DNA of 31,243 nucleotides from a virus, in the IMG/VR virus record IMGVR_UViG_3300035703_000315, positions 1-31,243 of that record; one strand, 5' to 3'. Made by a program: the position numbers and the translations under genes. Positions 5,916 through 29,100 of the stretch are shown in pieces. The notes below the pieces were generated by a model. That model made no database searches. It was not told where the DNA came from and saw only the letters and a list, made by a program, of their open reading frames with translations. Positions within the stretch are counted from its first letter, which is position 1, and every line of letters begins with the position of its first letter.

Positions 5916-8900
5916 TTACAGGTTGTTTTCAATATCTGCCGCAGTCAAAGTGCCTGCGACGGCTTTTTTCAGTAAATCAGTGAGGGTCTTGCGTAAAAAA
6001 TGTTGCTGCGTTTGGCTATAACCGTGATCGCTAAACAGCGGATAAATCGGAAAACGCTGGCGCATGCCATCAACGTCATGCACCCGAATGCCATTGCCAA
6101 GCACCTGGCGTGGTGTGCCGTTTGCATCTTTCACCCAAGCGGTATTGGCGGTGTCGGCAGGATCGACTTGCCCTGGTACTTCAGGCACCACGCCCACCGG
6201 CGTGCCGTAGTAAAAGTGCAGCGGATTGGTGCCGCTAAAGGGTTTGGCCTGGGTGCCATGGCCTGCGGCTTCTTCGGCTTTGAGTAACGCATAATCGCCG
6301 GTGGGTAGGTTGTAGGGGTTCCAGTTCTCGCGCGGGGTGCGCAAAATCAGCTCTAAAGGGATCATCCAGCTAAAGCCGCCCACAACACGCGGGTGACTGG
6401 TTTTGGCGACAAATAAAGTCGGATCGTTAAAGCCCCGGTTCGCCGCAACTCGGCCCGACGCATCATCCCGGTTGAACTTATAGCGACGGTTATACCGCGC
6501 AGCGTTTAAGCGCCCGGAGCCGTTGTGACTATCCAGCACATCATTGAGGCCATACTGGGTGTAGCTTTCTTCCAGAACCGAGCCATCGCCTTCAAGGCCG
6601 GGCAGCTTTTCGCACAGGGTCAAAAGGTCGGCGCATTCAAAGCGGGCCATCCGGCTTTTGGCTAAATTAGCCCAACTGCTTTGATGGGCGCGGCTTCTTA
6701 AATCCCGAACCAGTTTAAAGCGGTTGGTGTTATCAATGGTGCCAGCGACGGCTTTGGCTTCGTTATAGGGTAAACGGCCGTTGCTATCGGCAATCACGGC
6801 CACCGGGTGCTGATGGCCGGCGTGTAAATCCAGTGCCTGGTACTGCGTACCATCCCAGGTGACGCGAACCTGATGGGTGTGACCAAAGTCCGAACTGGTG
6901 GTCAGCTCCACTGCTGTGCCGGATTTAATCGACGCCATCTGGCTGCTTGTCAGTACCACCTCCAGGCTGTGGTAATGGCTATTGCTATTGCCGACTACAA
7001 AACGCGGCGATTGCTCAGCGCCACCCAGGGCGCGTAAATCACCGACCGGATAACTGTTGATGCGGTATTGCAAAGTGCCAAAGCGTGGCACGCCCTGGGC
7101 GTCGACATAACGCACCGTGAAGGGCTGATAGCTTAAGTTTTCCAGCCGGTTTTTATGGCCGCTGGCGTTGAGGTAACGGCCCTTGTCAAACATCTCCCGA
7201 TAGCCTTTGGCGTCATTGGCATGGCGGAATGAATCAGCGGGGTCATCCAGCGCATCATCTTCGGACTGCTCCAGCCAGCATTCCAGGTACGCTAAATGCC
7301 ACTGACAGTCCTGCGGGTTGGCGGTTTTAACATCCCGCATATACCCGGCTTGGGTATTGGCAAAATTGATACTGCCATCGGGGTTGATACCGGTTGGCAG
7401 TGCAGCAATGGCGCTCGGAAGTTCAGGGGCATGTAATGCCACGCGCTCTAAGTATTTGCCCTGGATGGGATACGCCATGGCGTAATCCATATGGCGCGTT
7501 CTGAAGTAATAACCATTGATACAGGCCGCGATTTCCGCCATGCCGGGCTGACTTTTGTAGTTCGGGTGGTTGTGGATGTTCAGTGCCGCGTAACTGACAT
7601 CATGTACGCGATACCCTAATTCAAAGGTGCGGTCGGCCTGATATTGCCGGGTATTGACGATGCCAGACGCGCCCTGAGAACGTAAAAACTCGGCGTAGCC
7701 TTCTTCCTGGGCAGCTTCGGCCAAAAAGTCCCGTTCCATCATGTTAAAAACCGGCAGCCGGTGGGCTTTACCGGCTTCGTGATAGCCCTGAAAATACTCT
7801 TCCGGCAGTGCATTGCTGGTGCGGACTTTTTCTAAATGCCGGTCCATCTGGGCAATGGCGCGGTCAGTGCGATAGACAAAATCCGCCAATGCCTGGCTCT
7901 GCGCTTCATCTGTGGTTTTAAGCTGCAGTTGCTCACTCATGAGATTGGCAAAGCCCACCACAAAGGCGCTATAGGCGGTTTCGCAGTTCAGCCACTGCTC
8001 CGCGATTTGGCTATCGCCACCGGCCAGCGGTGCTTTGCCTGGAGCGGGCGATTCTTGCAGTGGTGAGGTATCAAAAGCCACATGCACCGCCAGTGCCGCA
8101 GCGTTTTGGGCCTGCAGCAATAAATCAGACATCGCCGTCATATCGTGCTGGGCTTGCGCTGTAAACTCACTTGAAAGGGTGTTTAAACTGGATTTAATCA
8201 GCGCCATTTCATCCGCAATGGCATTGACCGCATCGCGGTGATGCAAAATGGATTGGCGGTACTGGTCCGCGATATTGGCGTGATGCGCCGCTGCACCGAC
8301 GGCATTTTGCGCATCGGTGGCGGTATCTTTGATTTCGTTATGCAACAGCGCGTTTAATACAGACAGGGTTTCAACCGCTTTGGCTTTGAGGTTCAAAAGC
8401 CGTGCTGAGGTATCCGCAGCTGCATCCCGTTGCTGCAGCGATTGATTGAGCATGGTGACGTTCAAGTGAGTCACCGCCACCTGCGTCTGGCCAATCCGCA
8501 CCTGCGCACCGGTCGCCAACACATCCCGCGCGGCTTGCTGTACGCCTTGTGCAATCTCAGCTGCTTCGTTCAAAATTAAGGTGCTGAGCGCCGCATTGGC
8601 TTTGACCGTGGCCGCGTTCGCGGTGCTTTGCTGTGCATCCCGTTTGGCTTGTGCTGCTGCATCCGTGGTTACGGCTTTATCTGCCGTCACCCGTGCCAGC
8701 GTGTTTGCCGCAGCGGCTTCAGCAGCAACCGCCGTGGCGGTTTTAGCGTTGACATTGCGCTCAGCAAAAAGCACCTGCGCGGCTTTTTCAGTCACATCGG
8801 CATGCTTGGTGTCGACGCCGGAAACTGCTGCAGTTGCAATGGCCGAAAGTGCGCTGACAGTCGCGGCATGGGTGGCTGTTTGACGGCTTTTTCCCGTGAT

Positions 8901-19220: not shown

Positions 19221-19244
19221 AGGTTGGGGCTTTCGCCCCAACCT
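19221..19244 (-). terminator. Perfect GC-rich hairpin with GAAA loop, likely terminator or attenuator
   Basis: The leftward RNA reads AGGTTGGGGC-GAAA-GCCCCAACCT, a perfect 10-bp stem with a stable GNRA tetraloop. The first base of the stem overlaps the last base of the HsdS-like gene's stop codon. Only CTCTTT follows, so the T-run is imperfect. It may end most transcripts after the HsdS-like gene or stabilise their 3' end, reducing expression of the HTH gene. Confidence 0.6.
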
Positions 19245-19531
19245 TACCTCGGTGACAGTCGGATGTTCCGAACGTCTGACACCTTGATGTTCACCAGACT
19301 CAGTGTACCGTTGGCCAGAGGCTCCCAGACTTTCTGACTATGCACATGCATCATGCAGTAGTAGAGGTAATCCGGCAGCAGGATATCAGTTCGAAGAACC
19401 TTCACCCCAATGTGCTCAGGGTTGTATTCCCTGGACACCATGCCAACAGTTTTTAAAGAGCCTCGGCGTACTATCCAAAAATCCGCATCTTTAAACTGCG
19501 TTTTAATGGAACAAACATCAGAAAGTATCAT
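19244..19531 (-). CDS. Orphan HsdS-like target-recognition domain
   Basis: A 95-residue protein resembling the C-terminal part of one target-recognition domain of type I restriction specificity subunits. VGMVSREYNPEHIGVKVLR is followed by the typical LLPDYLYYCM and a closing GTLSLVNIKVSDVRNIRLSP. A full HsdS has two such domains of about 150-180 residues each with long spacer helices. Here the spacer is missing, and no HsdM or HsdR gene is nearby. ATG at 19531 with GGAG six bases upstream is preferred to TTG at 19543. It might act as a decoy or modulator of host restriction, or be a small DNA-binding protein. Similarity is by pattern only. Confidence 0.6.
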   Translation of the reverse strand: MILSDVCSIKTQFKDADFWIVRRGSLKTVGMVSREYNPEHIGVKVLRTDILLPDYLYYCMMHVHSQKVWEPLANGTLSLVNIKVSDVRNIRLSPR

Positions 19532-19599
19532 CTCGTTCTCCAAGTGGCAGCTATGGCCCCCTCAGGACGAGTGGCCTTCTGTGTGCCACCGTGGATATC

Positions 19600-19880: not shown

Positions 19881-20549
19881 TTATGGGAAGTTGCGAATCA
19901 ATTTGTAGGTAATGCTGCTATTGTCAGCTTTTATAACTTCAATCAACGCACCTTTGTAGCCAATTACTTTTGATGTCGATAAATCATATTCGACATCATT
20001 GTTGAATGCGGGCCTGGCAATGTCTTTGCTGAATTCACGGTAGCCGATATTAATTTTATCGCCAACCCGACCACTGTAAATCAAAGTCTGTTGGAAGCTT
20101 TTTGCAGATTCAGCTAGTTGCCGCTTTCTTGCATACTGACCTTTGAAGCAAGAACTCACACCGTACAGGGTGATTACACAAACATCCTGGCCAAGACCTT
20201 TTTTGACTGATATCGCTTTAGCAGGATCAGCCAGCAGTGCTGGTTTCACACTGTAATTACCCCCTATAGTAACTGTCGAATAAAAGTTTTGTATTTTGTC
20301 AGCGCCTATCTGCAGATATGTGCCTGCAGGAATATCGTAGGTCGAGCCATCAATAGTATTTGCTATAACGAGCACGCTTTGTTCAGCAATCAGCCCCTTT
20401 TCGACCATGTGATCACCAACATATGCGGTCATCTCTGTTCCGACTTTTGGATAATCAATACCTCTAGTCACAGTATCAGCTCCGTTGTAACTAACAGTTG
20501 TACACCCCGATATGGCGATAGCTAATGCCAGGCAAAGAATTTTCTTCAT
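19881..20549 (-). CDS. Outer- or inner-membrane lipoprotein
   Basis: A 222-residue protein with a lipoprotein signal: MKKILCLALAIAISGC, with the lipobox ISGC and the acylated Cys at residue 16. TTVS follows, so retention at the inner membrane by an Asp+2 rule is not indicated. The mature part is beta-rich, with two further Cys pairs at best (VCVITLYGVSSCFKG), and no enzyme motif. GGAG sits six bases before the ATG. It is the last gene of the accessory run behind the repressor. Phage lipoproteins of lysogens often block superinfection at the cell surface. That role here is an inference. Confidence 0.7.
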   Translation of the reverse strand: MKKILCLALAIAISGCTTVSYNGADTVTRGIDYPKVGTEMTAYVGDHMVEKGLIAEQSVLVIANTIDGSTYDIPAGTYLQIGADKIQNFYSTVTIGGNYSVKPALLADPAKAISVKKGLGQDVCVITLYGVSSCFKGQYARKRQLAESAKSFQQTLIYSGRVGDKINIGYREFSKDIARPAFNNDVEYDLSTSKVIGYKGALIEVIKADNSSITYKLIRNFP

Positions 20550-20707: not shown

Positions 20708-23272
20708 CTATTTTTGAATCTTCAAACCAAACTTTGATGCAGACGCCAAAAAGTAAGCTTGCTGCGGTGTCGCTTTGATTTGTGGGTTGTGGGAGAGCAT
20801 TACATTTATTTCATTGCTGAAAAATTTCAGTGCTTGACCATACTCCCTGGCAATAGCTTTCATGATCATGTGATCCGTCGAACGGCTGATGAAACGATTG
20901 AGTTTCGTTTCAGTTTTGCCGTCATGCTCTACACACAAAAGACAATCGTTTTCTGATTCACGTAATACATGAATCACTGCTTTGCTTGCTCCCAACTGGT
21001 CAATTGCGTACCGCAACATATGGATCAAAAGATGAAATGCATCAGCATTCAACTTGCTGTTAATTTTATCGCACTCCCCGATACTAACATCTAGTTCTGG
21101 ATGGATACTGAAGATACTGGCGACATGGCTGTTTATCGCAAAAGTTAAGTTGTCAGTATCACGTAGGCGAGCATTCATAGCTATTGGCGCCAATATTTCT
21201 TGAAGTTCTTGAGCCTTGTAAATGGCATCTGATAACGCAAGCTCATTGTTCATATTAAGTTTGTGGGATATATCAAGAGACATATCACATGCTTTGCGAA
21301 TTTCATCGGCGTGAAGTTGATATCGCGACAGGCGAACAAACTCAGCATTAGCAACAGATTTTGCCTTTACTAAAGACCAGAGCGCCCACCAAGCAATGCC
21401 CATAACTGGCACAAGTAGCAGCCACAACCAACTTATGCGCTGCCTTACATCGATATACCACCCGTTTATCTGAACGGACTTTTCAGGGGTAAGTACAACT
21501 TGATGGTTATAGATTGAATACTCTTTTCCATCGAGAAAAACCGTACCATCTTTCCTATCGAAATGCAGAACGATAGCTTGGCCTGAATCGAGCTTAATAT
21601 TTTTATCTATTACCGCTCGCTGATTTAACACGACATACTGCAAAATTGGATTCGAAACCAATGCGCGTTCATCCAGTAACCAAACGCCATGTGGGTTACT
21701 ATAATAAATCCCGTTGTTCGTAACAGCGCTAGAACGTCCTGTAACACTAGCTGATATTTGCTTACAATAAGCAATGTTAACATCTAATCTGCAAACCCCT
21801 TCTCGGCCAATTACATACACTGATTGATTATGAACAAAAAAACGGTTCGGCAATGACTGCAGCGAATCTATTTTGTTGAGGCTTCCGTCCGAACCAACTT
21901 CAAAAATTCCATGGTTATAGCTAAGTGCGTAAAGTTTGTTTTTGATGATTGCAACATCTTCCCAAACAGCTTGTTTAAGACTTGCAATTTTTTTTAGCTC
22001 ATTGTCGTAAGTAAAAATATGGCTATCAGTCAAAACAAACAATTTACCTTGCTCGCTTTTGAGATTAAGTATTTCTTGACCCTTTAACTCATCTGTAGGT
22101 ATTTGAACCAGCGCGCCTTGATTTAATCTATAAATGCTGTGCTCAAAAGCTATCATTGTGTCTTCTTGGTATCTCTCAATGTCAGATACAAACCCGTTAT
22201 TAATTAACTGGCCATCGGGTAAAATAACGCCTTTATTAGTACCGATTGTAAAATTGGTCCCATCTCTAGTTTCGAATGCAGTAATGTGCTCATCCGTTTT
22301 TAAAACTATTTCTCCAGTTGTAACTGAATAAATTCCACCCACACCGCTTGCAAACACTCCGGCAGAACTTTGATAAATAAAAGGTTCTATAACAGCCGAA
22401 GCCACCAAGGATTTTGATTGAATATCGAATATTGAGATTTTTTTATTAAGCGTTAATGTAGTCCCATCAAAAAGTACGGGACCAGATGGACTGTCATAAA
22501 AAAATGCTGCTGGTTTATCAATGCTGTCAAGCAGTTGGAAATTGATTAGGCTGAATTTTTTCCAAATGCCATTACTTCGGACCCACACGGCATCTTCTTG
22601 TGAACTCATTTCTATTTTGGAAACGTTTTTTGGTAGTGTGAATTTATGCCATTGATTTGTTGTTCTGCTAAAAACGTGCATGAACTCAGAATCAGTCATG
22701 ACCATGTAAAGCGGGTTGGAAAGCAAACTCTTAAATTGGCCTTGCTTAACAAGACGTGACACCGTATTCATCAATGCATATAGACCGCCTTGGGTGAGAG
22801 CAAAAACTTCGCGGTCAACTTGAGTAATAGCAACAATTGGGAACTCAAATATTTTTGTTTTCGTTCCAGTTTCATCTTTTGGCAGTGCCCATAAATCACT
22901 ACCAGTATCAACATAGTAATATTTGTCCGATATTGCGAACCTGCTTACCCAGCCTGGAAATACTTTTATCACACTGTAATCAGTTAGATTTAGCTGAAAT
23001 AAACCAAACCCACCTGCATACAAGTGATTTTGGTCCTGGCTAATTTCGACCTGGCGTAAACGGCCTAAATCAATTCCGGAATCTTTCAACTTGAATAAAT
23101 TACCATCTGATAATTTTAAAAGACCCACATGGCTTGCAAAATACAGGTCCTGTTGGTGCTGAACTGCATCAGCTATAGGAATACTGATTGGTATTTCAAC
23201 ATTTTGTCGCGTTGCCGCATTTAAGAATGCAGATGCAAACAACATACAAACAATTAATAAGAGCTTTTCCAT
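20708..23272 (-). CDS. Membrane sensor with beta-propeller and degenerate kinase-like domain
   Basis: An 854-residue protein. It has a signal peptide (residues 1-20, cleavage near LNAA), then about 540 residues of repeated short strands with GVGGIYSV-, NGIYYSNPHGVWLL- and LYAGGFGLFQL-type blades, as in the periplasmic propellers of hybrid two-component sensors. A small Y_Y_Y-like beta domain (about 565-610) follows, then one membrane helix (613-635, Trp-rich), a helical stretch with DISHKLN (His670) where the dimerisation helix would be, and an ATPase-like region (about 735-830). The N-box is replaced by IHMLRYAID and no GxG glycine motifs are visible, so it is probably a pseudokinase. GAAGGG precedes the ATG. 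The gene is clearly AT-richer than the virion genes. No response regulator is nearby. Confidence 0.75.
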   Translation of the reverse strand: MEKLLLIVCMLFASAFLNAATRQNVEIPISIPIADAVQHQQDLYFASHVGLLKLSDGNLFKLKDSGIDLGRLRQVEISQDQNHLYAGGFGLFQLNLTDYSVIKVFPGWVSRFAISDKYYYVDTGSDLWALPKDETGTKTKIFEFPIVAITQVDREVFALTQGGLYALMNTVSRLVKQGQFKSLLSNPLYMVMTDSEFMHVFSRTTNQWHKFTLPKNVSKIEMSSQEDAVWVRSNGIWKKFSLINFQLLDSIDKPAAFFYDSPSGPVLFDGTTLTLNKKISIFDIQSKSLVASAVIEPFIYQSSAGVFASGVGGIYSVTTGEIVLKTDEHITAFETRDGTNFTIGTNKGVILPDGQLINNGFVSDIERYQEDTMIAFEHSIYRLNQGALVQIPTDELKGQEILNLKSEQGKLFVLTDSHIFTYDNELKKIASLKQAVWEDVAIIKNKLYALSYNHGIFEVGSDGSLNKIDSLQSLPNRFFVHNQSVYVIGREGVCRLDVNIAYCKQISASVTGRSSAVTNNGIYYSNPHGVWLLDERALVSNPILQYVVLNQRAVIDKNIKLDSGQAIVLHFDRKDGTVFLDGKEYSIYNHQVVLTPEKSVQINGWYIDVRQRISWLWLLLVPVMGIAWWALWSLVKAKSVANAEFVRLSRYQLHADEIRKACDMSLDISHKLNMNNELALSDAIYKAQELQEILAPIAMNARLRDTDNLTFAINSHVASIFSIHPELDVSIGECDKINSKLNADAFHLLIHMLRYAIDQLGASKAVIHVLRESENDCLLCVEHDGKTETKLNRFISRSTDHMIMKAIAREYGQALKFFSNEINVMLSHNPQIKATPQQAYFLASASKFGLKIQK

Positions 23273-23287
23273 ACATTCCCTTCAACC

Positions 23288-23306
23288 AGGGCACTTGAAG
23301 TGCCCT
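23288..23306 (-). other. Intergenic hairpin between secreted protein and sensor genes
   Basis: AGGGCACTT and its complement form a 9-bp palindrome around one base (7-bp stem with a 5-base loop in RNA). GGTTGAAGGG, the ribosome site of the next gene, follows rather than a T-run. A processing or attenuation element within one transcript is more likely than a terminator. Confidence 0.45.
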
Positions 23307-23319
23307 TTATTCCTATACT

Positions 23320-23808
23320 CTAATAATTATTCGGATGCTCAATAGCACCACATGTGCCACTAACTTCTGTTAAATCAAAAGCTGGAGCCTTTAACTCAAT
23401 TTTATTTTCGTTTAAAGAATCAACCTTTAAATCGCTCCGCTTAGCTTTTACATCGTTGGCTTTAACTAGATATGATTTACCCACAGGAGGACGTACCAGG
23501 ATGAAGGTGGGTAAACGAGGATCTGTCGATTTCGCTTTATTATTCCATTTATCCATAACAGCTTTACCAGCTGCTGGGCCATATAGTGCTTCATAAGCTG
23601 TTGCTAAAATTTCAGCACCTTGGCGACTTGTGACAATCATTGCGGTTTTGTCGTAATAGCTCCCACAGTCAAAGCTCATATCAACAGTTAAATTAGAATT
23701 ATCCGGCAACTTAAGATTGACCGTCATGTGTTCTATTTTTGCTCTGTTTTCGGCCATTACCGAAGTTGTACAAAATAAAGTTAAAGCTAAAAGCAATCCA
23801 TTTTTCAT
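23320..23808 (-). CDS. Secreted (periplasmic) unknown protein
   Basis: A 162-residue protein with a Sec signal peptide, MKNGLLLALTLFCTTSVMA, cut before ENRAK. The mature part is about 143 residues, Lys-rich, with two cysteines (in FDCGSYY and SGTCGAI) that could form a disulfide. There is no lipobox and no enzyme motif that I recognise. It starts 24 bases after the repressor stop and is followed by the sensor gene, so all three are probably on one transcript. It could be a ligand or partner of the sensor's periplasmic propeller, but this is inference. Confidence 0.7.
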   Translation of the reverse strand: MKNGLLLALTLFCTTSVMAENRAKIEHMTVNLKLPDNSNLTVDMSFDCGSYYDKTAMIVTSRQGAEILATAYEALYGPAAGKAVMDKWNNKAKSTDPRLPTFILVRPPVGKSYLVKANDVKAKRSDLKVDSLNENKIELKAPAFDLTEVSGTCGAIEHPNNY

Positions 23809-23832
23809 TATAAACCCTTTCTATTTGTGCAT

Positions 23833-24312
23833 TTAAACACTGTTAATAGTTAGGATTGAGCGACATGCCAAATCTATGGCAGCTTCATTGCCTTGGGTTG
23901 TAATCGCTAATTCCATAAGGATTTTTGCTAATTCAATCCTTAGACTGGCAATTTTTTTATCGCCCAAATCCCTCTTTTTGATTTCAACACTATTTAGATA
24001 TTTCTCAGATACCCGAACCACCATGGCTACATATCGGGTCATCAGCTCAATAGACGAATGATCCGCTGACTGAGATTTTCCAGACTCTTTCAGACATAAC
24101 AATTCATCCATTGACCAGCCATTCATCTCTGCCAATTCAATTAATTGACGATATGGCAGTTCGCCGTTTGTCTCTTGTCTGAGCAAAGTACTTGGAGCTA
24201 AGCCAAGCGATCGCGCCAGTTCAGATTTGCTTTTTACGCCTAAACGTTTTTGCAGTTCTTCCAGGACACGAGATGACCTAACGCTATCAACTTTATCTTT
24301 TTGCAAAATCAT
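23833..24312 (-). CDS. Phage repressor, CI-like, without peptidase domain
   Basis: A 159-residue protein. Residues about 10-70 are a CI-type helix-turn-helix domain (KSKSELARSLGLAPSTLLRQE). The C-terminal part is helical, without the Ser/Lys dyad of S24-type repressors, so RecA-induced self-cleavage is not expected. It is placed divergently from the Ner-like gene across the operator region, as in Mu (c and ner). ATG at 24312 is preferred over TTG at 24318. It should bind the three TTGC-N6-GCAA sites and hold the early promoter off. No strong leftward promoter is evident. Confidence 0.8.
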   Translation of the reverse strand: MILQKDKVDSVRSSRVLEELQKRLGVKSKSELARSLGLAPSTLLRQETNGELPYRQLIELAEMNGWSMDELLCLKESGKSQSADHSSIELMTRYVAMVVRVSEKYLNSVEIKKRDLGDKKIASLRIELAKILMELAITTQGNEAAIDLACRSILTINSV

Positions 24313-24337: not shown

Positions 24338-24403
24338 TTGCTAATATGCAACTCTTTGGTGTTGACATTTGCAAATATGCAAATGTATATTGCAGTCACG
24401 CAA
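24338..24403. promoter_or_regulatory. Three phage operators TTGC-N6-GCAA
   Basis: O1 TTGCTAATATGCAA (24338-24351), O2 TTGCAAATATGCAA (24369-24382) and O3 TTGCAGTCACGCAA (24390-24403) have the same architecture. Centre-to-centre distances are 31 and 21 bp, three and two helical turns. O2 lies in the spacer of the early promoter and O3 overlaps its -10 box. O2 is extended to CATTTGC/GCAAATG arms. They are binding sites for the repressor, the Ner-like protein, or both. Confidence 0.75.
24362..24391 (+). promoter_or_regulatory. Early promoter
   Basis: TTGACA (24362-24367) and TATATT (24386-24391) with an 18-bp spacer, about 70 bases before the Ner-like start. Operators O2 and O3 cover it, so a repressor at these sites would block polymerase. 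Confidence 0.7.
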
Positions 24404-24459: not shown

Positions 24460-24750
24460 ATGACGAAGCCCAATTTAACTGGCGCGCAAATCAAACTGAA
24501 ATTACAAGAGTCGGATACGACTATCAGTGATATTGCGTCTGTGCTTGGTTGCACTCACAGCCACATAAGTAATGTGATGCACCGCAGAAGCTACTCAATC
24601 AAAGTCGCCAAAGCGATATGCACGCTCATCAAACTTCCACTCGAACAAGTGTTTGGGGATGTCGAATCTTACTTCAGTACAAAACCGACGCGTGATAAGC
24701 GCCGGGCAGAAATAGAGCACAAGTTAAGAGAATATCAAGTGTTGCAATAA
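24460..24750 (+). CDS. ner: Ner-like early DNA-binding protein
   Basis: A 96-residue protein with a helix-turn-helix (ISDIASVLGCTHSHISNVMHRRSYS) and a following GHE-free helix with AKAICTLIKLPLEQVFGD typical of the Ner/Nlp type. It is the first gene of the early operon, with AAGGAT as ribosome site. In Mu, Ner shuts down both the repressor and, later, the early promoter. The C-terminal 25 residues, basic and charged, are longer than in Mu Ner (75 residues). A Cro-like role with the same operators is expected. Confidence 0.75.
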   Translation: MTKPNLTGAQIKLKLQESDTTISDIASVLGCTHSHISNVMHRRSYSIKVAKAICTLIKLPLEQVFGDVESYFSTKPTRDKRRAEIEHKLREYQVLQ

Positions 24751-25266: not shown

Positions 25267-26157
25267 ATGGCTAAGCCCCCAGTAATCCTTGATAACGATA
25301 CCTCTATGCCAATTGAGCGGCTGGAAGCTCTAGCGACTCAAGTTCAGCTGATTTTTCCTGATTCTGCCGACGAAGCTATGGAAGAGGTCGTGCGCCTGGA
25401 AGAAAAAAAGCAACTTGCTTCAGTCAAGCAAGGCTTACTCCTGCTGCAAGTTAAGAGTCAGTGCTCTTTTGGTGAGTTTCAAACTCGTGTAGCTAACTCT
25501 GGCATTTCATATCGTGTCGCAGCTCAATGTATTTCGATTGCCAAGATGTTTTTGAATTTACCCGATTCAAAAGTGAACGCGCGTTCACTTTTGAACATGA
25601 ACCACACCCAGCTGCGCGAAATGGCCAAACTGCCAATCCAAGTGTTGGATCAGTTGGATGAAGAAGCCATCGAAGGTCTGTCCGATTTATCCAGCCGCGA
25701 ACTCGCCAAAGAAGTAAAGCGCCTGCGCGTAGAAAAGGCCGAGGCCGAAGAGCGTGCCGCGTCTGCAATCAATCAGATGAACCTGGCGCAGTTAACTAAA
25801 AGCACTGATGTTCAGGGCTGGCCAAAGCTCATTGGCACCATTCGCCAAAACGCACTTGGCCAAAGCTCTGTTGCCAGTGAGTTTGTCGAAAAAGCGTTTG
25901 TCGATGTGAACGAGCTGATTAATGCCCGCCAGTTTACCCCTGAGCAACGTTTAGCCGCCGCGCAAACGGTGTGGCATAGCTGGATGGCTGTTGAAATGCG
26001 GTTAAACCAGATGCTGCAAAATCTGTTTGGTGAGTTCAATAGCAACCTGGCTGGTGCCGAGCATTTACCGGCGTTTAGCCATCAGGAATGGCAAAACGCC
26101 ATCGCTAACCGTGAATACATGCTGGCCATGTATGAAATGCAGCGGGGGTTCAAATAA
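25267..26157 (+). CDS. Early protein, DUF3102-like
   Basis: A 296-residue protein resembling DUF3102-type proteins. The segment SVKQGLLLLQVKSQCSFGEFQTRV, with ISYRVAAQCISIAKMF after it, looks like the growth/partition-associated helical module of that family. A charged coiled-coil (residues about 140-175) and a C-terminal helical domain follow. ATG at 25267 is preferred over GTG at 25261 because GGAG lies nine bases upstream. The stop overlaps the transposase start (TAATG), so it is coupled to transposase synthesis. A 30-bp perfect palindrome lies in its codons. Function is unknown. Confidence 0.7.
   Translation: MAKPPVILDNDTSMPIERLEALATQVQLIFPDSADEAMEEVVRLEEKKQLASVKQGLLLLQVKSQCSFGEFQTRVANSGISYRVAAQCISIAKMFLNLPDSKVNARSLLNMNHTQLREMAKLPIQVLDQLDEEAIEGLSDLSSRELAKEVKRLRVEKAEAEERAASAINQMNLAQLTKSTDVQGWPKLIGTIRQNALGQSSVASEFVEKAFVDVNELINARQFTPEQRLAAAQTVWHSWMAVEMRLNQMLQNLFGEFNSNLAGAEHLPAFSHQEWQNAIANREYMLAMYEMQRGFK
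25566..25595. promoter_or_regulatory. 30-bp perfect palindrome in the early operon
   Basis: The half site TTCAAAAGTGAACGC is followed immediately by its exact complement. Chance occurrence of such a palindrome in a window this size is very small. It encodes DSKVNARSLLN, and the opposite strand encodes the same SKVNARSLLN peptide. The site could bind a dimeric protein or extrude or fold as a hairpin. It lies about 560 bases before the transposase gene. Confidence 0.7.
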
Positions 26158-27827
26158 TGCACCCAGCTGTTGCCCGTTTCGCTCAATTACCTGCGCTGTC
26201 AAATCCGGCTGCAGATACCGGTTTTGCCAAGGCGTCAGACAAAGCCCGCCGCACTGCCCAGGCGCGTTATGCCATCGTCAGTGATATCAATCAGCGTGGT
26301 GGCAAAGTGGATATCGCCATCTCTGCACTGCAAGCTGAAATTGCTGCCGGTTCTGCCAGTCTGGCCGTCGTACAGGCACTGGCCCACCTGGGGAAATTGC
26401 CGGGCCGTTCCACGCTTTATAACTGGTTTAACCAATACAAATCAGATGGCATGGATGGACTGGTGCCAGGCTACAAAGGTAAAGCACGCACAGTGCATCT
26501 ATGGGAAGCCAAGGCGCTTGAGCTGTATCACAGCCCCAACAAACCATCTATTGAAATGGTGGCAGATCACCTGGTGAGGCTTGGCTTTTCAACTGCTACA
26601 GCTGCCCGTGTCCGCGCCTTTATTAACTCAATGCCGCATGAGCTTGGTCCAGACAGCATGTATCGCATGAGTGCAAAGCTGTATCGCGAAAAGCACAAGG
26701 ACCATCGGATCCGCCACACCGACCAAATACCGGCTGGCTTTATGTACAACGCCGACGGCCATTCACTGGATGTGTACCTGGCACACCCTAACACCGGCAA
26801 GCCGTGGCGCGCTGAACTCACCGCATTTATGGATGTTCGCAGCCGCGTCATTGTGGGTTGGGAAATCTCTGAAGCCGAAAGTGCGATCAGCACGCTGACT
26901 GCGCTCAGCCGCGCCATGGCAACGCATGACCATGTGCCAGCCATGTTGTATCTGGATAACGGATCTGGCTACAAGTCGGCCATGATGAACGATGACACGG
27001 CAGGCTTTTACGCTCAGTTCAACATCGAGCCATTGTTTGCCATTCCAGGCAACGCACGAGCTAAGTGGATTGAACGGTTTTTCTTAACCATGGAAGACCG
27101 CCTGGGCAAAACATTTATCAGCTACTGCGGCCGTGACCATGACGAACGCCATAAAGCTGAAGTGCTCCGCCGTGCTAAATCCGGCGAAATCCAGCTGCCA
27201 AGTCTGGACGAATGGATCGCTGGCTTTAAAGAGTTCCTGGACTGGTATCACCACCAGCCGCACCCGGAAGTGCCAGGCAAAACGCGCTGGGACGTCTGGC
27301 AAGAGCTGGAGCGGGTGCCGGTTGGGATGGCCGATTATCAAATCAGACCACGCGCCAAGGTCAACGTGCTGCGCGGCCGTGTACGCCTGCACAAACGTGA
27401 TTACAGCGCGAACTATCTGCACCAGTTCAACGGTGAAGAGCTGCTGGCTGAATACGACCTGCACAACGACAGTCACATTGCGCTGCTGCGCCTGGACGGC
27501 AGTTTTTTAATGCTGGCCGAGCTGAAAGCCAAGGTGTCTGCCATACCAACCAGCCGCATTGAAGAAGCGCAGCAAAATCGCCTAGTGGGTCAGGAAAAAC
27601 GCCTGCAACGCAAAATTTCGGAAGTGCGCCACCGCGCGGCCTTGGGCCAAACCATTGATATGCAGCAGCTGACAGAACTCAGCGCAGACATACCAGCGCT
27701 GGACAACGTAGCACCGCTGCCATTAGCGCTTGATGATCATGCACCGCTGATGGCAGACCTGCTGCAGCTGCATCCAAGCAAATCAGAGAATTTATTAGAC
27801 CAGTTACTGGAGCAACGTTATGTATAA
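26157..27827 (+). CDS. A: Transposase A (MuA-like DDE recombinase)
   Basis: A 556-residue transposase for integration and replicative transposition of the phage genome. N-terminal DNA-binding region: a Mu-type helix-turn-helix around residues 25-110 (GRSTLYNWFNQYKSDGMDGLV). Catalytic core of the RNase H fold: Asp200 (NADGHSLDVYL), Asp267 (LYLDNGSGYKS) and Glu306 (KWIERFFLTMED). The first spacing is 67 residues, as in MuA. A Mu-type C-terminal beta-barrel follows (about 370-450), then a helical tail that would contact the B protein. It is about 100 residues shorter than MuA, mainly at the N-terminus, so the enhancer-binding domain may be missing. The stop overlaps the B start. Confidence 0.95.
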   Translation: MHPAVARFAQLPALSNPAADTGFAKASDKARRTAQARYAIVSDINQRGGKVDIAISALQAEIAAGSASLAVVQALAHLGKLPGRSTLYNWFNQYKSDGMDGLVPGYKGKARTVHLWEAKALELYHSPNKPSIEMVADHLVRLGFSTATAARVRAFINSMPHELGPDSMYRMSAKLYREKHKDHRIRHTDQIPAGFMYNADGHSLDVYLAHPNTGKPWRAELTAFMDVRSRVIVGWEISEAESAISTLTALSRAMATHDHVPAMLYLDNGSGYKSAMMNDDTAGFYAQFNIEPLFAIPGNARAKWIERFFLTMEDRLGKTFISYCGRDHDERHKAEVLRRAKSGEIQLPSLDEWIAGFKEFLDWYHHQPHPEVPGKTRWDVWQELERVPVGMADYQIRPRAKVNVLRGRVRLHKRDYSANYLHQFNGEELLAEYDLHNDSHIALLRLDGSFLMLAELKAKVSAIPTSRIEEAQQNRLVGQEKRLQRKISEVRHRAALGQTIDMQQLTELSADIPALDNVAPLPLALDDHAPLMADLLQLHPSKSENLLDQLLEQRYV

Positions 27828-29100
27828 ACCAAAAAAAATGCCATTTAGATACAACGCTACTCAACGCAAGATGGCTCTAAAGCTGCGCGAAGCGATCGAA
27901 GCGCGTGAACTGCAACCGTTAGATTATTGCAAAACGGTCAGCATGGAATTAGTTGATTTAGTGCTCAATGAAAAAAGTGCTGACAACCCAACGGAAGTGC
28001 TGGATGAATTGTGGAAGATCATATTCGGCGATTTGAAAATGTCAGAGCTGGAAGAGGCCGACAAATTTACTGACAAATATTCAGCCGAAGACATTGAGCT
28101 TTCACGCAAAATCCTGCAGCGCTTAGATGCGCCAGAGCTGAGATTAAGCGGCGTCACAGCCGGTTACGTGGCAAAGCGGCTGGGCAAAACCGCTGGTTGG
28201 TTCAGCCAGATTGTGAATGGCAAATACAACGCGGATCCATCTGCACATCTGCGTGCAATTTGGGCCGCAATTGAGCCAGCACAGATTGCTGAGCAAACCT
28301 CAACCACCCAAGCTGCTGAAGAAACAGCAACATCTGCACGGCAAAAAGTGCTGTCGCAGCTGAACCTGCGCTATGGCGATGTGCCGTTTGTGCAAACCAG
28401 TATGTCTGAATTGATTGATTACACCTGTGCTCATGCCAGACGTGCACGCCGCTTTTCGGTATTTGCCGGTGCACCTGGTCTTGGCAAAACCTACGGCTTG
28501 CAGGAATACATCCGGCAGAACCCGCAAACTTTGCTGATTGTTGGCCATGAGCAAATGACTGCCAACATCCTGCTGGCAGAGCTGTCGATGATGCTGGGGT
28601 TGCCCAAGCTGACAACAGCCAGCCGCACCATGGACGCGATTATTCGAACCCTGCACGGCGCTGATCGCATCATCATTTTAGATGAAACGGATAAATGTAA
28701 GCCCAACGCGCTGGACCCACTGCGCACGATCAGCGACCGCGCCCAAATCGGTGTGGTGCTGATTGGTAACACCAAATTGACTGACCGCCTGCAAGCCGAG
28801 GAGCGCTACGAACTGATCGCCAGCCGCGTGTGCTTTTGGCCAACGCCGAAGGGTCAGCTTGATAGCGAAGATATCAAGCACTTATTTCAGAGCCTGACCC
28901 AGATGTCACTGCCATTGGTCGATGCGGATCCAACGTGGTGGACGTGGCTGCATAAGCGCGTCGAAGGCAATGCCCGCCTGCTTTGTGAAAACTTGCTGCC
29001 GCACCTGGTGAGCGTTTGCAGCAGAGACGAAACCAAGCGGGTGGACCGGATGTTAGTCAACTCGATTTTCAAACAAGTGCTGAATAAGCCAGCCATTTAA
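27820..29100 (+). CDS. B: Transposition ATPase B (MuB-like), N-terminally extended
   Basis: A 426-residue AAA+ ATPase that coats target DNA, delivers it to the transposase and gives target immunity. It has a Walker A GAPGLGKT (217-224), Walker B IIILDE (284-289), and a sensor region with VVLIGNTKL. A MuB-like helix-turn-helix (VAKRLGKTAGWFSQIVNGKY) precedes the ATPase at about 116-136. MuB is 312 residues, so about 110 extra N-terminal residues, acidic and helical, are present. The start overlaps the transposase stop by eight bases, so the two are coupled. Three phased TTTAAAC boxes follow its end. Confidence 0.92.
   Translation: MYKPKKMPFRYNATQRKMALKLREAIEARELQPLDYCKTVSMELVDLVLNEKSADNPTEVLDELWKIIFGDLKMSELEEADKFTDKYSAEDIELSRKILQRLDAPELRLSGVTAGYVAKRLGKTAGWFSQIVNGKYNADPSAHLRAIWAAIEPAQIAEQTSTTQAAEETATSARQKVLSQLNLRYGDVPFVQTSMSELIDYTCAHARRARRFSVFAGAPGLGKTYGLQEYIRQNPQTLLIVGHEQMTANILLAELSMMLGLPKLTTASRTMDAIIRTLHGADRIIILDETDKCKPNALDPLRTISDRAQIGVVLIGNTKLTDRLQAEERYELIASRVCFWPTPKGQLDSEDIKHLFQSLTQMSLPLVDADPTWWTWLHKRVEGNARLLCENLLPHLVSVCSRDETKRVDRMLVNSIFKQVLNKPAI

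Follow-up and report, generated by a model that had tools for sequence, protein, structure and literature searches.

A repressor, a secreted protein and a membrane sensor form a conserved cassette exchanged as a block against S24 repressors in marine Mu-like phages

We analysed the IMG/VR virus record IMGVR_UViG_3300035703_000315 (31,243 bases, hereafter the window), in which a CI-like repressor gene is followed on the same strand by the genes of a secreted protein and of a large membrane sensor (together, the pair). In a group of marine Mu-like phages these three genes form a conserved cassette, which is swapped as a block against a repressor of the Peptidase_S24 type. This suggests that dormant phages carrying the cassette watch the cell exterior instead of DNA damage when deciding to wake. 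A preliminary description of this DNA had placed a secreted protein and a sensor-like membrane protein directly behind the repressor on the same strand; this arrangement held, as an apparent operon, and the cassette recurs.

Results

The pair and S24 repressors exclude each other in close relatives

Eighty phage loci were retrieved by their transposase, and those with at least 46% identity were taken as the close clade, in which 41 loci had a readable immunity region. Four further loci are not counted among the 41: L095, whose contig ends after a repressor of the pair type, and three that were too short (L107, L120 and L123). A short repressor followed by the secreted protein and the sensor was found in 24 of the 41. 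In two of them (L127 and L144) the sensor gene is split into two open reading frames (ORFs), as from a frameshift or a sequencing error. Fourteen others carry a Peptidase_S24 repressor (PF00717 detected in 14/14) and none of these retains any trace of the pair; conversely, the S24 domain was absent from all 26 pair-type repressors scanned, including those of the window and of L095. The last three relatives have a third type of repressor, associated in two cases with another small partner gene. This third immunity type (L096, L097 and L108, around positions 7080-8100) consists of an Xre repressor of 133-142 amino acids (aa), followed in L096 and L108 by a cysteine-containing partner of 152-160 aa.

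The mutual exclusion of pair and S24 repressor gave a Fisher p of about 1e-10, kinship being ignored. On the transposase tree the repressor-type label requires 8 changes, at least 6 of them on supported branches, and the independent contrasts (n = 6) all pointed in the same direction or were neutral (p 0.03-0.13). In phage pairs with 97-99.6% identity outside it, the cassette-bearing block shows no similarity at all, and in this block the repressor, the pair and the downstream accessory genes are replaced together. The window repressor itself showed no Peptidase_S24 domain in a domain scan, which places it outside the S24 (RecA-cleavable) class, and a PDB search with its C-terminal domain returned no match.

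All three genes of the window cassette lie on the minus strand, with gaps of 24 bases between the repressor and secreted genes and of 47 bases between the secreted and sensor genes; the boundaries first assigned to the set (20708-24312) proved exact. Neither a terminator nor a good promoter, either of which, along with a lack of transcription in the lysogen, had been named beforehand as evidence against the proposal, was detected on the minus strand between repressor and sensor. The order repressor, secreted protein, sensor is repeated in the phage relatives found, which, with the purifying selection on the sensor gene (see below), makes the arrangement more than a chance one. From this layout we infer that the three proteins would be produced from one transcript, expressed in the lysogen.

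Breakpoints inside the cassette

Since linked genes travel together, we looked for breakpoints within the cassette itself. When L098 and L141 were compared with L100, L101 and L103, the DNA encoding the sensor ectodomain was only 53-73% identical, and the secreted gene, the repressor C-terminal domain and the HATPase end of the sensor were about 91-99% identical. The helix-turn-helix (HTH) domain of the repressor is swapped separately from the sensor ectodomain, and the form of the divergent Ner-like gene changes along with the HTH. Through these swaps a core stays nearly constant, which comprises the C-terminal domain of the repressor, the secreted protein and the output domain of the sensor. 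Covariation with the sensor, estimated from pairwise identities (Spearman), was highest for the repressor C-terminal domain (0.89), followed by the HTH (0.68) and the transposase (0.52).

A double-propeller sensor with a degenerate ATPase domain

The AlphaFold model of the sensor (12 sequences, mean predicted local distance difference test score (pLDDT) of 63) contains beta-propeller regions at about residues 29-290 and 299-560, an immunoglobulin (Ig)-like stretch and one transmembrane (TM) helix. It bears out the periplasmic propeller initially proposed, with two propeller regions and an Ig-like stretch; the model of the cytoplasmic part is of low confidence and unreliable. The best fold matches in the PDB were the ectodomains of Bacteroides BT4663 and BT4673 (E down to 8e-22), PorZ being also listed. 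Global TM-scores of these matches were low, presumably because the model does not fix the placement of the propellers relative to each other. Sensor relatives in other phages have recognisable HATPase_c, Reg_prop and Y_Y_Y domains in Pfam, and their cytoplasmic part, searched as a profile, matches VraS, DesK and DevS.

The degenerate kinase-like domain of the preliminary description is real: homologues of the same layout have an intact HATPase_c (PF02518, E 3e-9), and the N, G1, G2 and G3 ATP-binding boxes are lost in the window, L002 and L003, while all other full-length sensors of the clade retain them intact. No conserved phosphoacceptor histidine was found in the aligned helix region of the sensors, and neither a receiver domain nor a cognate response regulator was found in the sensor or the adjoining genes. 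A classical His-Asp phosphorelay is therefore unlikely, and a two-component system of this kind was rejected. The sensor gene is under strong purifying selection (dN/dS about 0.04, with synonymous sites near saturation). Between the window and L002, the degenerate HATPase-like domain gave dN 0.07 and dS 1.0, as would be expected of a pseudo-ATPase that is being maintained rather than of one in decay. In the window's clade the ectodomain diverges faster than this output domain, with dN 0.26 versus 0.07 in the same comparison.

The secreted protein and the intergenic hairpin

The secreted protein has two cysteines, C48 and C153, which are invariant across the phage family. Its family had no match in any database searched; its fold model is weak (pLDDT 56), and the PDB yielded neither a fold match nor a sequence match. 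Family members bearing a signal peptide keep the two conserved cysteines, and chromosomal members at the miaB site (see below) lack both the signal peptide and the first cysteine at that position. The association of the cysteine pair with the signal peptide fits a disulfide in the periplasmic form. As the secreted protein stays constant while the ectodomain is swapped, we do not favour it as a specific ligand of the variable ectodomain.

A perfect 8-bp hairpin, AGGGCACTTCAAGTGCCCT, separates the secreted and sensor genes, and hairpins of differing sequence occupy the equivalent place in most relatives (L094, L098, L099, L105, L114, L124, L127, L130, L131 and others). A role as minus-strand terminator was ruled out by the absence of a U-tract. 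Judging from its position, the hairpin could instead shield the upstream message, making the repressor and the secreted protein more abundant than the sensor and possibly setting the ratio of the products.

Distribution of the pair

In Mu-like phages of the window's kind the pair was found in L002, L003, L005 (a phage residing in Pseudoalteromonas gelatinilytica), L006, L008, L009, L026, L037-L042, L084 and others. A relative bearing the cassette resides in Pseudoalteromonas gelatinilytica NH153 (L013). The order repressor, secreted protein, sensor also occurs in a second Mu-like group (L071 and L073), where the repressor is another one, a divergent regulator is present and the sensor is followed by an endolysin-like gene, and in the integrase-type prophage L031, which contains integrase, DnaT-like and Q-like genes. 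A repressor-like gene thus lies directly upstream of the pair in all three phage types, that of L031 being named from its sequence and place, as it has no Pfam match. Between the two Mu groups, no homology of the repressors was detected in the C-terminal domain, and searches for more loci of the L031 and L073 types gave no further independent examples.

Outside phages, a divergent form of the pair is widespread on the chromosomes of Alteromonadaceae. The small protein occurs in 67 of 399 Alteromonadaceae genomes, prophage copies included, and most chromosomal pairs examined stand between a FAD monooxygenase gene and miaB, with no adjacent repressor. The chromosomal pairs (L027-L030, L032, L076-L078, L080, L081 and L085-L090) are unannotated and consist of a small protein that has no signal peptide and a degenerate propeller sensor. 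The chromosomal sensors that were aligned (n = 5) have degenerate ATPase motifs, and in the sensor tree window-type phage sensors and chromosomal sensors form separate groups.

The pair genes also occur in a few solitary or odd contexts (L033, L072, L074, L075, L082 and L083). Homologues of the small protein without a sensor are present in L072 (7508-7861) and likewise in L074 (7717-8262); one follows a 1482-aa protein (N-terminal KVFISSPNDVE) and the other adjoins LytTR-like and response-regulator-like genes. A motif search upstream of the pair in L082 and L083 revealed no repressor remnants. The sensor and secreted protein of the window, as well as their L005 copies, had no match among annotated phages, hence the system did not turn up in any deposited phage record; the window sensor had no match among plasmids. 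The PADLOC models of anti-phage defence gave chance-level matches only.

Genomic context

The window belongs to a KS10-like transposable (Mu-like) phage, with a Mu-type transposase, an AAA transposition protein, a divergent Ner-like gene and a repressor (Table 1). By transposase identity, Burkholderia phage KS10 (42%) and Curvibacter phage TJ1 (39%) come nearest among annotated phages. Both share the layout repressor, divergent small gene, transposase with the window, but the genes behind their repressors are different and unrelated. The cassette genes are located inside the phage and not in host DNA, the latter having been the other finding named in advance as speaking against the operon. The leftward set comprises the repressor, the cassette genes and long ORFs as far as position 635.

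Genes directly behind the sensor vary freely among relatives. The lipoprotein gene does follow the sensor after 158 bases, as first noted, but its inclusion in the set did not stand: we rejected it as a cassette member because an unrelated convergent gene takes its place in the close relatives L003 and L005. Downstream of the lipoprotein gene, a perfect match to the sigma-70 consensus (12/12, spacer 16) at 19627-19600 on the minus strand looks like a separate promoter for the next leftward genes, and a 99-aa ORF at 19244-19543 (minus strand) without a Pfam match is kept in L002 and L003.

Table 1. Features of the cassette and of its surroundings in the window
Feature	Position	Strand	Remarks
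CI-like repressor, 159 aa	23833..24312	-	HTH at residues 16-73; Phage_CI_repr PF07022, E 7e-8
Repressor C-terminal domain	23833-24075	-	short, helical; about residues 80-159
Secreted (periplasmic) protein, 162 aa	23320..23808	-	clear signal peptide MKNGLLLALTLFCTTSVMA
Intergenic hairpin	23288..23306	-	between secreted and sensor genes; no U-tract on this strand
Membrane sensor, 854 aa	20708..23272	-	signal peptide
Sensor ectodomain	about 21437-23200	-	two propellers and Ig-like domain, predicted outside
Sensor TM helix	about 21353-21436	-	single
Sensor cytoplasmic part	20711-21352	-	
Degenerate HATPase-like domain	20711-21067	-	end of sensor
Lipoprotein	19881..20549	-	phrog_1353; next gene downstream of sensor
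Promoter-like site	24362-24391	+	11/12; upstream of Ner-like gene
Ner-like DNA-binding gene	24460..24750	+	divergent from repressor
Mu-type transposase	26157..27827	+	PF09299 and PF00665; clade marker for comparison
AAA transposition protein	27820-29100	rightward	

Discussion

In these phages the cassette takes the place of the S24 repressor class, so that, on the simplest reading, the repressor would receive another input from the sensor. The preliminary description had left open whether the set acts on the host or on the prophage. Because the pair occurs in the close clade only with a peptidase-less repressor, and because the repressor C-terminal domain tracks the sensor, the comparison points to the prophage's own repressor, an action on the host being less likely. 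We thus consider that there is an even chance that the cassette is an immunity module whose repressor is controlled by an envelope sensor, in replacement of SOS-linked cleavage. A more specific version, which we rate a little below an even chance, is that a TM double-propeller sensor with a secreted partner directly controls the repressor, so that induction would read the periplasm or the outside and not DNA damage. In this version the DNA-binding and sensing ends can be exchanged, conferring specificity for DNA and for the signal, and coupling would be the task of the constant core; the output of the window's clade would be a pseudo-ATPase.

The following mechanism may be proposed. A single transcript would give rise to repressor, secreted protein and sensor in the lysogen. 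The secreted protein would be a periplasmic accessory of the sensor, whose double propeller may bind a periplasmic or glycan-like ligand or monitor the envelope. A change of signal would be relayed by the TM helix to the output domain of HATPase type, and this domain would bind or modify the helical C-terminal domain of the repressor, setting its activity. Such a route would stand in for RecA-stimulated cleavage as the path to induction. The output domain probably uses ATP in most relatives; in the window's clade it would be a pseudo-ATPase acting by protein contact alone. The action of the sensor on the repressor, the central step of this scheme, is deduced from gene arrangement and sequence comparison.

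Several observations weigh against a control of the repressor by the pair. Repressors that lack both the peptidase domain and the pair are frequent among more distant Mu-like phages and also occur in L096, L097 and L108, so that, as a rule, a repressor of this kind can do without the pair. L112 (4399-4875, plus strand) and L124 (3856-4332, plus strand) each have an extra, solo pair-type repressor in the accessory region, accompanied by neither the secreted protein nor the sensor. The chromosomal pair stands without any adjacent repressor, and swaps of the ectodomain are not followed by the secreted protein. As the repressor adjoins the pair, linkage alone accounts for part of their co-occurrence, and the case is further weakened by the small number of independent contrasts available, about six.

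Linkage could even be the whole explanation, the pair being cargo that travels with the repressor block without any functional tie. The replacement of repressor, pair and downstream accessory genes in one block is in line with this; however, the breakpoints in the HTH and the ectodomain do not part the repressor C-terminal domain, the secreted gene and the output domain, the same order is found in two further phage types, and the genes right behind the sensor vary freely, which makes pure cargo very unlikely in our eyes. We regard as rather unlikely that the pair serves lysogenic conversion or superinfection exclusion, altering the envelope or detecting injecting phages from the periplasm to protect the lysogen, the repressor not being regulated. 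The slot behind the repressor is usual for lysogen-expressed accessory genes, KS10 and TJ1 having unrelated genes there, and the diversification of the ectodomain would also fit an arms race. But the pair is tied to one repressor type and missing with the other, which does not hold for the accessory genes that follow it, the cytoplasmic output domain is retained with ATP motifs intact in most sensors, and known defence families are unmatched. The sensing of invading phages, suggested in the preliminary description, found no support in anything we observed.

The pair might otherwise be a captured host signalling unit which addresses host regulators, for instance a NarL-type response regulator, or some other protein of the host, and changes the behaviour of the lysogen. 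The wide presence of a related pair on Alteromonadaceae chromosomes, mostly at one conserved site between the FAD monooxygenase gene and miaB, and the resemblance of the cytoplasmic domain to NarL-type kinases (VraS, DesK) would agree with such host manipulation. We nevertheless find it unlikely, given that the phosphoacceptor histidine is absent, that phage and chromosomal sensors fall into separate groups and that the exclusion with S24 repressors would be left unexplained.

Significance and comparison with known systems

DNA damage, acting via repressor cleavage, induces most of the well-understood prophages, and a few use cytoplasmic receptors of small signals; to our knowledge, the exit decision of peptidase-less Mu-like prophages is largely open. 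If our reading is true, lysogeny control would have a new input, through a cassette that connects the repressor with an envelope sensor, and a function would be given to an unannotated family of secreted and propeller proteins that has relatives on the chromosomes of many marine bacteria. Phages that are otherwise near-identical offer a natural set of exchanged ectodomains and of S24 alleles as alternatives; as the same phage would be available with and without SOS coupling, the question is directly testable. We found no description of such a cassette in the open-licence papers searched.

The sensor resembles the Bacteroides hybrid two-component systems (HTCS) BT4663 and BT4673 (Reg_prop propellers, Y_Y_Y) in its double-propeller and Ig-like ectodomain, its single TM helix and its HATPase-type output. 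It differs from them in having no phosphoacceptor histidine, receiver or AraC-type output, in adjoining a phage repressor and in having a secreted partner. The ATPase domain of its relatives matches the profiles and structures of NarL-type sensor kinases (VraS/LiaS, DesK, NarX, UhpB), but the cassette sensor is devoid of their dimerisation and phosphoacceptor motif and of their response regulator, and in the window's clade also of the ATP boxes. Propeller, Y_Y_Y or Ig-like domain and TM helix, as in the HTCS and NarL ectodomains, are present, by Pfam in the relatives and by fold in the window copy. On sequence grounds the sensor is thus of the HTCS/NarX kind by its predicted input, yet it does not qualify as a histidine kinase, having neither phosphoacceptor nor receiver and, in the window, no ATP site.

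S24 (CI/LexA-type) systems place an HTH repressor at the same location of the same phages, as the cassette does; the cassette repressor has no peptidase domain, and the sensor pair instead. Among Mu-like phages, an S24 domain in the repressor has been associated with induction by mitomycin (PMC8541194). The nearest published parallel that we found is the agr3 locus of phage phiCDHM1, with a HATPase-type sensor, a small partner and no response regulator; its genes are AgrB/AgrD, of peptide quorum sensing, its sensor is unrelated, and the excerpted account of the locus reports no tie to a repressor (PMC3901668). The cassette is not of the arbitrium type, given that its secreted protein has 162 aa with conserved cysteines and is not a short pro-peptide, and that its receptor is a membrane propeller and not a cytoplasmic RRNPP/TPR protein. 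Arbitrium and the lysis-lysogeny signalling of the VP882 VqmA type rely on cytoplasmic receptors of small molecules or peptides, with no transmembrane sensor. They tie the prophage decision to a signal other than DNA damage, as we propose for the cassette.

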